DNA from: Actinomycetospora chiangmaiensis DSM 45062
GTDB lineage: Bacteria > Actinomycetota > Actinomycetes > Mycobacteriales > Pseudonocardiaceae
Assembly (NCBI RefSeq): GCF_000379625.1
Contig: NZ_KB903217.1
Location: 141,816-205,815, forward strand
Reading direction: 5' to 3'
DNA: 64,000 nt
Under the pieces are notes generated by a model that was given only the letters and a program-made list of their open reading frames with translations, ran no database searches and was not told the origin of the DNA. Of this stretch, positions 59,000-64,000 are shown piece by piece. The translations under genes were made by a program, and so were the position numbers. Numbering within the stretch: the first letter of the stretch is position 1; each line of letters opens with the position of its first letter.

Positions 59000-59091
59000 G
59001 GCTCGGTGGTCGAATCGCCGGTCCCCGAGGGACCCGGCCCCGCCCCGGCTGTGGATCCCGCCGGAGGCCTGTGGTGACCAGGAGGAACGCC

Positions 59092-62016
59092 GTGACCGCC
59101 CAGCCCGACGTCGCCCGGCGGGAGGCTCTCACGCCGCCCTACCGGTACACCGCCGAGCTGGCAGGAGAGATCGAGGCCCGCTGGCAGGACCGGTGGGAGG
59201 CCGAGGGCACGTTCGAGACGCCGAACCCCTCGGGCCCGCTCGCCGACGGTCGCACGCTGGACCCGGCCGAGAAGTACTACCTGATGGACATGTTCCCGTA
59301 CCCCAGTGGCGCGGGGCTGCACGTCGGGCACCCGCTGGGCTTCATCGGCACCGACGTCCTCGGCCGGTTCCTGCGCATGACCGGGCGCACCGTGCTGCAC
59401 ACGATGGGCTTCGACGCTTTCGGGTTGCCGGCCGAGCAGTACGCGGTGCAGACCGGCACGCACCCGCGGACCACCACCGAGGCGAACATCGAGCGCTACC
59501 GCGCGCAGATCCGTCGTCTCGGGCTGGCGCACGACAAGCGGCGGTCGGTGTCCACCACCGACGTCGGGTTCTACCGGTGGACGCAGTGGATCTTCCTGCA
59601 GATCCACGGTTCGTGGTTCGACGTCGCGCAGAACCGGGCGCGCCCGATCACCGAGCTCGAGGCCGAGTTCGCGGCGGGGACGCGCCCGGTGCCCGGCGGT
59701 CGGTCGTGGTCGGAGCTGACCCGCCCCGAGCAGGACCGCGTCCTGGACGGCTACCGCCTGGCCTACCTGGCCGACGCTCCCGTGAACTGGTGCCCGGCGC
59801 TCGGCACGGTGCTCTCCAACGAGGAGGTCACCGCCGACGGACGCTCCGAGCGGGGCAACTTCCCCGTCTTCCGGCGGAACCTGCGCCAGTGGATGATGCG
59901 GATCACCGCCTACGCCGACCGTCTCGCGGACGACCTGGACGGCGTCGACTGGCCGGACTCGGTCAAGGCGATGCAGCGGAACTGGATCGGCCGCTCGCAG
60001 GGCGCCACGGTGCGCTTCCGCAGCGGCGAGCACGTCCTCGAGGTCTTCACGACGAGGCCTGACACCCTGTTCGGCGCGACCTACATGGTCGTGGCGCCGG
60101 AGCACCCGCTGATCGACGCGATCGTGCCGGACGCGTGGCCGACGCTCGCCGACGAGGCGGAGCTGGACGGTCGCTGGACCGCCGGCGCCGCGACCCCGGC
60201 CGAGGCGGTCGCGGAGTACCGCCGCGTCGTGGCCTCGCGCTCCGACCTGGAGCGCCAGGAGGCCCGCGACAAGACCGGTGTCTTCACCGGGGCGTGGGCG
60301 ATCAACCCGGTCAACGGCGAGCCGCTGCCGGTGTTCGTCGCCGACTACGTGCTCATGGGCTACGGCACCGGCGCGATCATGGCCGTCCCCGGCCAGGACC
60401 AGCGCGACTGGGACTTCGCGTCGGTGTTCGGCCTGCCGATCAAGCGGACGGTGCAGCCGCCGGCGGACTTCGAGGCCTCGGGTGGCGAGGCGTACACGGG
60501 GACCGGGGCGGCGATCAACTCGTCGAACGCCGAGATCTCCCTCGACGGGCTGGGCGTCGACGAGGCCAAGGCGTCGATCATCGCGTGGCTGGCCGAGCGC
60601 GGCGACGGCGAGGCCGTCGTGCAGTACAAGCTGCGCGACTGGCTGTTCAGCCGCCAGCGCTACTGGGGCGAACCGTTCCCGGTCGCCTACGTGGCCGACG
60701 GCGAGTCCGACGGCGGGCCGTCGATCCCGCGCGCCCTGCCCGACTCCGACCTGCCGGTGCTGCTGCCCGACGTCGACGAGTACGCCCCGAAGACGTTCGC
60801 GCCCGACGACCGTGACTCGGCGCCGGAGTCCCCGCTGGCCCGGGCCACCGAGTGGACGTCGTTCGCCGAGGACCTGGCGTCCGACCCGGAGCGGGGCTGG
60901 GCGGAGTACGTCCGCGAGACGAACACGATGCCGCAGTGGGCCGGCTCCTGCTGGTACCACCTGCGCTACCTCGACCCGACCAACGAGCAGCGCTTCGTCG
61001 ACCCCGACGTCGAGCGCTTCTGGCTCGGGCCGCGGCCCGACGTGTTCGGCCCGGCCGACCCCGGTGGCGTCGACCTCTACGTCGGCGGCGTCGAACACGC
61101 GGTGCTGCACCTGCTCTACGCCCGGTTCTGGCAGAAGGTGCTGTTCGACCTGGGCCACGTCTCGGCCTCCGAGCCGTTCCGCCGCCTGTTCAACCAGGGC
61201 TACATCCAGGCGTGGGCCTACGTCGACGCGCGCGGGGTGTACGTGCCGGCCGAGGAGGTCGTCGAGGGTCCCGACGGTGGATTCACGTGGAACGGCGAGC
61301 CCGTCACCCGCGAGTACGGGAAGATGGGCAAGTCGCTGCGCAACGTGGTGACCCCGGACGACATGTGCGCCACCTACGGCGCCGACACGTTCCGGCTCTA
61401 CGAGATGTCGACCGGACCGATGGAGGCCTCGCGCCCCTGGTCGACCCGCGACGTCGTCGGCTCGCAGCGCTTCCTGCAGCGGGTGTGGCGGCTGTTCGTC
61501 GACGAGCAGGACGGGTCGCTGCGGGTCTCGGACGCCGAGCCGTCGGACGACACGCTGCGGCTGCTGCACCGCACGATCGACGGGGTGCGCGCCGACTTCC
61601 CGGCGCTGCACTACAACACCGGCGCGGCGAAGCTCATCGAGCTGTCCAACCACCTGACGAAGGCCTATCCCGACGGCGGGTGCCCCCGGTCCGTCGCGGA
61701 GCCGCTGGTGCTCATGCTGGCCCCGCTGTGCCCGCACCTGGCCGAGGAACTGTGGTCGAAGCTGGGCCACCCGTCGTCGCTGGCGTACGCGGACTTCCCG
61801 GTGGCCGACCCGGCCCTGCTCGTCGAGGACTCCGTCGAGTACCCGATCCAGGTCAAGGGAAAGGTCCGCTCGCGGGTCACCGTGGCCGCCTCGGCGAGCG
61901 AGGACGAGGTGCGGGCCGCCGCCCTCGCCGACGAGAAGGTCGTCGAACTCCTCGCCGGTGCGGAGCCGCGCAAGGTGATCGTGGTGCCGGGTCGTCTGGT
62001 GAACGTGGTGCCGTAA
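59092..62016 (+). CDS. leuS: Leucyl-tRNA synthetase
   Basis: 974 residues. The class I HIGH motif is HVGH at 77-80, KMSKS is KMGKS at about 744-748, with an editing domain between. It charges tRNA-Leu. GTG 59092 follows AGGAGG (59080-59085) by 6 bases; GTG 59071 would lie before it. Position corresponds to Rv0041. Followed by a 49-bp inverted repeat and an AbiEi-like gene. Confidence 0.97.
61279..61294. other. parS-like sequence inside leuS
   Basis: GGATTCACGTGGAACG, 14 of 16 identical to the parS copy at 35519-35534 but with 12 of 16 to the general consensus. The core TTCACGTGGAAC is intact. Weak candidate for ParB binding. Confidence 0.3.
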
Positions 62017-62029
62017 CCGGCTCCCCCCG

Positions 62030-62078
62030 CGTGAGGGGAACCCCGGTGCCATAAGAGCGCTCGGATCCTCCCCTCACG
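62030..62078. repeat. Left 49-bp inverted repeat flanking an AbiEi-like gene
   Basis: Its reverse complement is 44 of 49 identical to 63125-63173. Both ends are themselves inverted (GTGAGGGGA/TCCCCTCAC), with a central GAGCGCTC palindrome, so it can form a hairpin. It lies 13 bases after leuS and ends 8 bases before the next gene's start. Confidence 0.85.
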
Positions 62079-62085
62079 ACGGCGG

Positions 62086-63087
62086 GTGGATCCGATCTGG
62101 CCCCGGCTGCGTCACCAGGACGTGCCGAGGAAATCGAAGGTCGACTGGCAGGCGGTCCGTGATGCCGCGCCGCACGGGGTGGCGCGGACGGCGGAGCTCC
62201 GCGAACTGGGTGTCGCGGCCGGCACGATCGCCGGCCGCACCCGCTCGGGGCAGTGGGAGCGCGGCTCCCGTGGCCAGATCCGGTTGCGGACGGGTCCCCC
62301 GACGACGGAGGAACGGCTCGACGCGGCGCTGCGACTGGCCGGCCCGGATGCCGTGCTCAGTGGGGCGGCCGCCTGTCGGTTGTACGGGCTCACGAAGCTG
62401 CCCGACGCGGGGACGATCCTGGTGCTCGTGCCTCACGGGAGGCGACGACAGGACGCCGACGAGGTGCACCTGGAACGCACGCACCGCCCGCCGCCGGCGG
62501 TCGTGCGCAGCGGCTTCCCGTGCGCTCCCCTGGAGCGGGCGGTGCTGGACGCCGCGCGCCACATGGTGCGGCTCGACCCGGTGCGATCCCTCCTCGCGGA
62601 GGCGGTGCAGCGCCGGTTCACCACGGTGGCGCGTCTCACGGAGGAGCTGGACGCGGGCACGCGCCGCGGCACCCGCTTAGCCCGCATCGTGCTCGGGGAA
62701 CTGGCCGACGGGGTGCGGTCGGCGGCTGAGTCGTGGGCCCGGGAGATCGCCCGCGAGATGGAGCAGGAGGGCTTCCCGCCGATCGAGTGGAACCGTGCGA
62801 TCCACCTGGAGTCGACGGGCGCGTTCCTCTTCAGCCCGGACGGGTGGATCGACGAGGTCGGGGCGGCGTGGGAGATCGAGTCGGTCGAGTACCACCTCGA
62901 CCCGGAGGACCAGGAGCGCTCATACGCGCGCCGCGCCCTGATGAACACTCACGACGTGGTCCTGGTCGAGCACCGGCCGAAGCTGCTCCGGACGAATCCG
63001 TCCCAGGTGAAGCGGGAGGTCCGGGAGGCCTACGAGCGGGCTCTCCGCCGTCCACGCCCGCCGCTCGAGGCCCGTGCGCCACGGTGA
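62086..63087 (+). CDS. AbiEi-like type IV antitoxin-related protein
   Basis: 333 residues. The N-terminal half has a winged-helix-like GVARTAELRELGVAAGTIAG and SGAAACRLYGLTKLP, then a region with RSGFPCAPLERAVLDAARHM typical of actinobacterial proteins annotated as AbiEi antitoxin-like. The C-terminal part (about 225-320) has WIDEVGAAWEIESVEYHLDP, which looks like a DUF559/restriction-endonuclease-like fold. No partner toxin (AbiEii nucleotidyltransferase) lies next to it, so it is an orphan. GTG 62086 or 62122 starts it. It is bracketed by 49-bp inverted repeats. Confidence 0.65.
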   Translation: MDPIWPRLRHQDVPRKSKVDWQAVRDAAPHGVARTAELRELGVAAGTIAGRTRSGQWERGSRGQIRLRTGPPTTEERLDAALRLAGPDAVLSGAAACRLYGLTKLPDAGTILVLVPHGRRRQDADEVHLERTHRPPPAVVRSGFPCAPLERAVLDAARHMVRLDPVRSLLAEAVQRRFTTVARLTEELDAGTRRGTRLARIVLGELADGVRSAAESWAREIAREMEQEGFPPIEWNRAIHLESTGAFLFSPDGWIDEVGAAWEIESVEYHLDPEDQERSYARRALMNTHDVVLVEHRPKLLRTNPSQVKREVREAYERALRRPRPPLEARAPR

Positions 63088-63090
63088 GGG

Positions 63091-63135
63091 CTCCCCTCAC
63101 GCTCGACGGTCGTACGCCGGCGAGCGTGAGGGGAG
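63091..63135. terminator. Strong hairpin after the AbiEi-like gene
   Basis: Arms 63091-63105 and 63121-63135 are perfect 15-bp inverted copies with a 15-base loop. The right arm overlaps the left edge of the right 49-bp repeat. Confidence 0.7.
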
Positions 63136-63173
63136 GAATCGAGCGCTCTTAAGGCACGAGGGTTCCCCTCACG
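63125..63173. repeat. Right 49-bp inverted repeat flanking the AbiEi-like gene
   Basis: Reverse-complement partner of 62030-62078, with five mismatches. It ends 16 bases before the inositol-phosphate synthase stop. Confidence 0.85.
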
Positions 63174-63188
63174 CCATAGGGGGCACTG

Positions 63189-64000
63189 TCACTCCTCGCC
63201 GCGGATGAACGACTCGACGGCGTCGTAGGCCACGGAGTCCCGGTACTGCACGGGCGGCGACTTCATGAAGTACGACGACGCGCCGAGCAGCGGGCCGCCG
63301 AGGCCGCGGTCGAGGGCGATCTTCGCGGCGCGCACGGCGTCGATGATGATGCCGGCCGAGTTCGGGGAGTCCCAGACCTCGAGCTTGTACTCCAGCGACA
63401 GCGGCACGTCCCCGAAGGCGCGCCCCTCGAGGCGGACGTAGGCCCACTTGCGGTCGTCGAGCCACGGCACGTGGTCCGACGGCCCGATGTGGACGTTGTC
63501 CTTGCCCATGTCGCGGTCGACCTGCGAGGTCACCGACTGGGTCTTCGAGACCTTCTTCGACTCCAGGCGCTCGCGCTCGAGCATGTTCTTGAAGTCCATG
63601 TTGCCGCCGACGTTGAGCTGCATCGTGCGGTCGAGCTGGACGCCGCGGTCCTCGAACAGCTTGGCCAGCACCCGGTGGGTGATGGTGGCGCCGACCTGGG
63701 ACTTGATGTCGTCACCGACGATCGGCACGCCCGCGTCGGTGAACTTCTGCGCCCACTCCGGGTCGGACGCGATGAACACGGGCAGGGCGTTGACGAAGGC
63801 GACCCCCGCGTCGAGCGCGCACTGCGCGTAGAACTTGTCGGCGTCCTCGGAGCCCACCGGCAGGTAGGAGACGAGCACGTCGGCGCGCGCCTCGCGCAGC
63901 GCCGCGACCACGTCGACCGGCTCCTCGTCGGCCTCGGTGATCGTCTCGCGGTAGTAGCGGCCGAGCCCGTCGTAGGTGTGGCCGCGCTGCACGGTGACCC
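63189..64000 (-). CDS. ino1: Inositol-3-phosphate synthase (partial)
   Basis: The N-terminus lies beyond the right edge; 270 residues are present. Features are [60 protein letters not shown] and [20 protein letters not shown], all typical of the actinobacterial myo-inositol-1-phosphate synthase. It converts glucose-6-phosphate to inositol-3-phosphate for phosphatidylinositol and mycothiol. Matches Rv0046c. The first strand and NAD-binding GxGxxG are not visible here. Confidence 0.95.

Follow-up and report, generated by a model that had tools for sequence, protein, structure and literature searches.

Many bacteria carry short dispersed palindromes, and RAYTs (REP-associated tyrosine transposases) are, to our knowledge, the only partner enzymes known for families of them. 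AbiEi is the antitoxin of type IV toxin-antitoxin systems (AbiE), and antitoxins of this type are DNA-binding autorepressors. The REP and REPIN sequences that go with RAYTs are described, in the parts of PMC3116915 that deal with them, as dispersed extragenic palindromes that form inverted-repeat doublets, each group having a specific partner gene. Here we analyse 64,000 nucleotides (nt) of the soil actinobacterium Actinomycetospora chiangmaiensis DSM 45062 (contig NZ_KB903217.1, positions 141,816 to 205,815; hereafter the window), in which a gene for an AbiEi-like protein with a nuclease-like C-terminal part lies between leuS and ino1, enclosed by two inverted copies of a 49-nt palindrome. 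We think it probable that gene and palindromes belong to a REPIN-like system, in which dispersed polar palindromes are spread or maintained by a dedicated AbiEi-EDxHD protein. The pairing of gene and palindrome appears well supported by sequence comparison, and binding of the protein to its own palindrome is strongly suggested; from its fold, its invariant residues, the layout of doublets, and the presence or absence of elements among genomes we infer that the protein nicks or cuts DNA and in this way multiplies or maintains palindromes.

A gene family and its palindromes

The palindrome family to which the repeats of the window belong, which we call type A, is 49 nt long and has the arms CGTGAGGGGA and TCCCCTCACG. 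Within a comparison set of 18 Actinomycetospora genomes that includes the source genome (G000), the pattern CGTGAGGGGA-N5-35-TCCCCTCACG has 24 exact matches in G000, all of them 49 nt in length, and the reversed control has none. With the spacing fixed at 29, the pattern occurs in five of the 18 genomes (24, 33, 17, 14, and 9 copies) and in none of the other 13. The search of the genome and its relatives that the preliminary description had proposed thus yields 24 copies in G000 and 9–33 in four relatives, numbers that reject a repeat confined to this one locus. When 63 type-A elements are oriented by their core, a common C-rich tail appears 5′ of the palindrome (C or G predominating at positions −1 to −11), the 3′ side having no comparable conservation, and the palindrome is therefore polar. 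Among the matches listed for G005, G009, and G000, 12 of 15 doublets are inverted in the orientation of the gene cassette, with starts 63–66 nt apart, two are ‘++’, one is ‘−−’, and none has the opposite inversion; orientation was judged by the arms, tails having been profiled for type A only. According to a codon-composition heuristic applied to 40 type-A copies (loci L001–L015 and L037–L056), nine lie inside coding-like open reading frames (ORFs), compared to 1049 of 1400 random positions, and 20 lie at most 60 nt from the end of such an ORF. We note that in six of the 40 copies a heuristic ORF ends 5 nt inside the element, and translation of the upstream gene may for this reason stop at the TGA of CGTGA in the element.

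Bracketing by palindromes extends to relatives of the gene. For 53 distinct homologs (duplicates removed), taken from Actinomycetospora and from records of Lentzea, Kutzneria, Pseudonocardia, Streptosporangiaceae, Nocardiopsis, and Hamadaea, and for 397 control intervals, we compared the 350 nt before the gene with the 350 nt after it. The inverted flank match exceeds the highest of the 397 controls in 43 of the 53 homologs, and 45 lie above the control 99th percentile when direct and inverted matches are both counted (the elements being palindromic, the two kinds of match overlap in meaning). Between genes, upstream-downstream matches are at background for proteins less than 45% identical and increase with protein identity, and palindrome similarity tracks protein similarity (Mantel Spearman 0.386, 0 of 999 permutations). 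Read directly, the bracketing palindromes are CGTGAGGGGA at the window gene, CGCGAGGGGA at its relatives of 72% identity in G005 and G009, GAGCGAAGGGCACC at the other lineage found at the leuS locus, and ACGAACG..TCGTTCGT at another paralog group. Remote homologs from across the class support bracketing less strongly: 16 of 29 lie above the control maximum, and about 12 of the 28 outside the locus itself are true palindromes by eye.

Further copies elsewhere in the same genome or record were found for four Actinomycetospora palindrome types and one Rhodococcus type. For copies with the CGAGGGGA arm, the counts are 80 and 30 in the two genomes possessing the 72% gene and 0–4 in 15 others. Type B (GCGAAGGGC..GCCCTTCGC) is present in all 18 genomes at 1–41 copies, and GTGAGCACTT..AAGTGCTCAC, which brackets a distant paralog in G000, has 30 matches there and is a pattern found in 17 of the 18 genomes. 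In some CGAGGGGA elements of G005 and G009 the central CTAGAGC core, judged by eye, runs opposite to the arms (GCTCTAGC where the arms are forward), as if the two turned independently.

Outside the genus, Rhodococcus ruber record NZ_CP145323.1 has a 38% homolog whose annotation is ‘hypothetical protein’ and which lies between CCGAATGTCACAT palindromes. This record holds six such palindromes with at least 39 of 47 matches, the best chance match in three shuffles being 28 (BLAST gives 11 places, since one palindrome can match on both strands). Five of the six lie outside annotated genes, though only 5971 of 73,973 bases are non-coding, and four lie between convergent genes, one of these four overlapping an annotated gene end. 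Among 72,556 plasmid records, gene and palindrome each match only NZ_CP145323.1 at the limits used. The record (loci L266 and L267) is labelled plasmid pmega_4 and is probably a piece of chromosome, because it carries serS, pks13, fadD32, and arabinosyltransferase genes. The gene has no match in 50,697 phage records and no relative in viral contigs, and a DNA-level search of plasmids with the cassette gave no match; with the one ‘plasmid’ record looking chromosomal, we reject a phage or plasmid gene.

That the window gene lies between dispersed palindromes, and that related actinobacterial genes lie between different palindromes of their own, suggests a family of small mobile DNA that has not been described before. 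The preliminary description had envisaged either a small mobile cassette that lacks a transposase of its own or a set of hairpins to which the protein itself binds. The outcome that it named as refuting, a repeat at this locus alone with the gene always present, is contradicted by the dispersed repeat and by the gene-less junctions described below. It did not envisage that gene and palindrome are paired throughout a family to which the cassette belongs, which makes the enclosed gene itself the candidate mobilising enzyme.

The cassette and its encoded protein

The features of the locus are as follows, in coordinates of the window.

59071..62016, + strand: leuS, conserved left neighbour
62019..62029, + strand: C-rich 5′ tail of the left element (from the profile of 63 type-A elements)
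62030..62078, + strand: left 49-nt palindromic element, forward orientation, starting 13 nt past the leuS stop
62086..63087, + strand: AbiEi-like/nuclease-like gene, 333 amino acids as given in the ORF list
62131..62706, + strand: codes for residues 16–207, predicted AbiEi-antitoxin-like fold
62713..63048, + strand: codes for residues 210–321, predicted Vsr/EDxHD-type nuclease fold
63091..63135, no strand assigned: third hairpin, CTCCCCTCACG...CGTGAGGGGAG, between the gene and the right element and overlapping the latter (inverted-repeat search and folding)
63125..63173, − strand: right 49-nt palindromic element, reverse orientation
63174..63186, − strand: 5′ tail belonging to the right element; minus-strand sequence GTGCCCCCTATGG
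63189..63998, − strand: 3′ part of ino1, conserved right neighbour, continuing past the end of the window

The top entry of an inverted-repeat search over 61500–64000 is a pair of arms at 62029–62078 and 63125–63174 (50 nt, 90% complementary, 1046 nt between them), in agreement with the inverted 49-nt repeats, identical at 44 of 49 positions, from which the preliminary description started. The two elements face each other with their 5′ tails outward, and single-strand DNA folding gives a hairpin for each arm (−13.7 kcal/mol; z −4.6 and −4.7), as had been stated. The repeats were also said to enclose one gene between leuS and ino1, and 62086–63087 is indeed the sole plausible ORF between them. 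A motif described as central, GAGCGCTC, proves to sit off-centre within the 49-nt element. GTGAGGGGA occurs six times in the window, compared to 0.76 expected, and five of the six copies are at this locus. The earlier remark that no toxin gene is adjacent also stands: the ORF list of the window contains no toxin ORF near the gene, whose neighbours are leuS and ino1, and no adjoining gene for an AbiEii nucleotidyltransferase toxin, on which ground we reject an AbiE toxin-antitoxin pair. A known RNA at the locus is likewise rejected, Rfam having no match within 61900–63300.

As modelled, the protein is an AbiEi-antitoxin-like fold joined to a Vsr/EDxHD homing-endonuclease fold, which backs the antitoxin-type N-terminus and nuclease-like C-terminus read from the sequence earlier. 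Residues R211, S212, E215, N236, D252, S266, and H270 are invariant in all 33 aligned sequences (the window protein and 32 others), and the glutamate at position 263 is missing in two paralogs (L030 and L031). The listed start, GTG at 62086, is probably too early, and GTG at 62122 (VPRKSKVDW) is the better candidate, because homologs begin with M/VPRR..DW and residues 10–14 are modelled with a predicted local distance difference test score under 50. The window protein has no match in NCBIfam, and the nearest other match to the gene in its own genome is 42% identical.

Turnover at leuS-ino1 and at dispersed sites

At the leuS-ino1 junction, 11 of the 18 genomes carry a gene of the family (the match in G006 including one stop codon), two have remnants (G001 and G011), one has a lone type-B-like palindrome (G007), three lack both the gene and any element of these palindrome families (G003, G014, and G015), and one ends there (G012). 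Gene-less junctions, which the preliminary description had suggested looking for, therefore exist, and the gene is not always present. The remnants (L113 in G001 and L119 in G011) are C-terminal, and that of G001 still lies between two palindromes. The gene tree places G000 together with G005 and G009 (100/100), and the leuS tree, which covers 16 of the 18 genomes (G012 and G014 omitted), places G000 among G013, G004, G008, and G017. Forcing the grouping of either tree onto the other data is rejected (approximately unbiased test, p-AU 7e-46 and 9e-7), for groups that were named after the identities had been seen. Because the two trees conflict, it appears that two lineages of the gene, each accompanied by palindromes of its own, replaced each other or were sorted at leuS-ino1.

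The dispersed sites turn over as well. We queried 22 of the 24 G000 elements in six relatives (two partners of close pairs omitted), and 21 sites have orthologous flanks, site 0 being without them. Of 126 site-by-genome cells, 88 are readable: 34 hold type A, 23 type B, 5 another palindrome, and 26 none (scoring thresholds 37 and 34; best chance scores in 88 window segments 27 and 29). Seventeen of the 23 type-B elements lie at most 15 nt from the expected position (e.g. at sites 3, 10, 13, and 14), and at site 13 G000 and G013 have a doublet of one arm type where G009 has a doublet of the other. Different families may occupy one position because they share a target, because one was exchanged for another in place, or because a hairpin at gene ends is selected for. 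Two further families stand where G000 has type A: a 48-nt palindrome, GCTCGTGAGCAG...CTGCTCACGAGC, at L217 (G005, site 4) and L219 (G009, site 7), and a 41-nt perfect palindrome, GGGGTGTGTGGTGCACAGGAATCCTGTGCACCACACACCCC, at L184 (G013, site 15), shorter at L182 (G017).

Explanations and comparison with described systems

In the REPIN-like system that we favour, a dimer of the protein would recognise the palindrome, as duplex or as hairpin, and would nick or cut there, and this in turn would lead to palindromes and palindrome pairs being copied into new intergenic sites. The outward-facing pair that encloses the gene would be the complete version of the element, and gene-less pairs and single palindromes would be its non-autonomous versions. 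Several observations weigh against this interpretation. In the bracketing test, 8 of the 53 homologs stay at or under the control 99th percentile, and if direct matches are allowed too the control maximum rises to 44, which 27 of the 53 exceed; the Mantel result is one of tracking, in which co-divergence and shared descent are not separated. Palindromes occur apart from their genes: a match at least 50% identical to the window gene is absent from four of the five genomes with CGTGAGGGGA elements, G010 (59% complete) has 14 CGAGGGGA elements and the 72% gene was not found in it, and type-B elements do not track the gene at leuS, being present also in genomes without the type-B gene there. A different palindrome family at orthologous positions is not predicted by simple random insertion. 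Inspection by eye of the few empty-site alignments, in which the noncoding flanks have diverged, showed none of the target duplications that the preliminary description had proposed looking for. Finally, the proteins match Pfam families weakly (lowest E among the 33 sequences: AbiEi_4 5e-5, MTES_1575 7.5e-4, DUF559 1.5e-3), and the window protein's own AbiEi_4 match falls below the cut-off.

An unlikely explanation, though the most probable of the rivals, is that the AbiEi-like protein binds the palindromes in order to regulate transcription or organise the chromosome, the copies around the gene being autoregulatory, the scattered copies its regulon, and the nuclease fold inactive or secondary. 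The modelled fold matches that of the autorepressing AbiEi-type antitoxins, palindromes track the protein as operator and repressor would, and glutamate 263 is missing in L030 and L031. Yet the placement of half of the 40 type-A elements near the ends of heuristic coding-like ORFs, and of four of six Rhodococcus copies in convergent gaps, is not that of promoters; one element lies also downstream of the gene; the 33 aligned sequences all retain E215, D252, and H270; and inverted doublets of near-constant spacing resemble a replicating unit. The same placement, just past stop codons and in convergent gaps, would suit bidirectional terminators or stabilisers of mRNA 3′ ends kept by selection, with the gene between two of them by chance, as would the strength of the hairpins and the finding that the palindrome family at a given 3′ end can differ between species. 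We consider this quite improbable: no T run follows the hairpin in the profile of 63 type-A elements and a scan of 61900–63300 found no terminator-like site, for which reasons an intrinsic terminator is rejected, and the subfamily-specific palindromes around one gene family, as well as the match of gene and palindrome to one and the same record of 72,556, would be left unexplained.

Short, palindromic, dispersed elements with presence/absence polymorphism also recall miniature inverted-repeat transposable elements, which would be moved by an ordinary, unrelated transposase encoded elsewhere, the gene being a trapped passenger. This is very improbable given that the palindromes around one gene family change from one bacterial lineage or family to another. 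Moreover, a search for the Y1 transposase of RAYTs (PF01797) found none in the 18 genomes of the genus and was positive in 5 of 14 control genomes, other transposase families not having been searched for; mobilisation by a RAYT is rejected on the same result. Least probable of all is a role in defence or as a toxin-antitoxin system, in which the nuclease would cut DNA that lacks the palindrome, or be held inactive by palindromes, so that loss of the cassette is penalised. AbiEi being a type IV antitoxin would fit, as would the replacement of one gene lineage by another at one locus. Nuclease parts like that of Vsr also occur in conflict systems (PMC3710099, in the part concerned with them). 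Against this, no partner gene appears in the ORF list, and there are genomes with palindromes that lack the cognate gene, as well as junctions without the gene.

A broader form of the REPIN-like interpretation, which we advance tentatively and rate somewhat short of an even chance, is that these elements constitute a class of mobile palindromes that extends across the Actinomycetes and has not been described before. In such a class, each family would be made and spread by its own AbiEi-EDxHD nuclease dimerising on a dyad of 50–60 bp, enzyme and palindrome would diverge together, and families would displace one another at the same gene ends, the whole being an independent equivalent of REPIN-RAYT in a genus without RAYTs in 18 genomes. 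If the interpretation is correct, a second enzyme family, unrelated to RAYTs, is paired with palindromes, and such a lifestyle arose more than once; many actinobacterial genes annotated as hypothetical or AbiEi/DUF559-like would gain a function, and many natural enzyme-target pairs with long palindromic targets would be at hand. It raises a testable question: do the palindromes multiply, and by means of this protein? In the literature searched (subscription journals and most preprints lying outside the coverage), no paper was found whose title or abstract connects AbiEi or Vsr-like genes with dispersed palindromes, and five palindrome stretches of 13–14 nt were not found printed in any paper.

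Among described systems, AbiE shares with this one the AbiEi fold, as modelled, and differs in having an adjacent AbiEii toxin gene, where the present gene has instead an extra nuclease-fold domain and dispersed palindromes. The EDxHD homing endonucleases (I-Bth0305I) and Vsr resemble the protein in its predicted nuclease fold with conserved acidic and histidine residues, and presence or absence at leuS-ino1 would be compatible with homing of the gene. Unlike theirs, however, the DNA-binding part here is AbiEi-like, and the gene, with a palindrome on each side, lies between two host genes rather than inside one. The restriction-endonuclease-like families MTES_1575 and DUF559 give weak matches in 9 and 3 of the 33 aligned sequences, respectively. 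In the part of PMC3710099 that treats it, the MTES_1575 domain is fused to helicase, HEPN, and winged helix-turn-helix domains in giant proteins, and palindromes such as those found here are not mentioned in that part. Closest is REPIN-RAYT, in that the palindromes are dispersed and extragenic, as judged from the exact copies in G000 and the ORF heuristic, the doublets listed are mostly inverted, and the partner gene adjoins its own repeat family, as seen in the 53-homolog test and in the distant-paralog and Rhodococcus families. The partner is nevertheless another protein, with predicted AbiEi and Vsr/EDxHD folds instead of a Y1/HUH transposase, and the element is a palindrome of about 40–55 nt that, in the family of the window, carries a C-rich 5′ tail.
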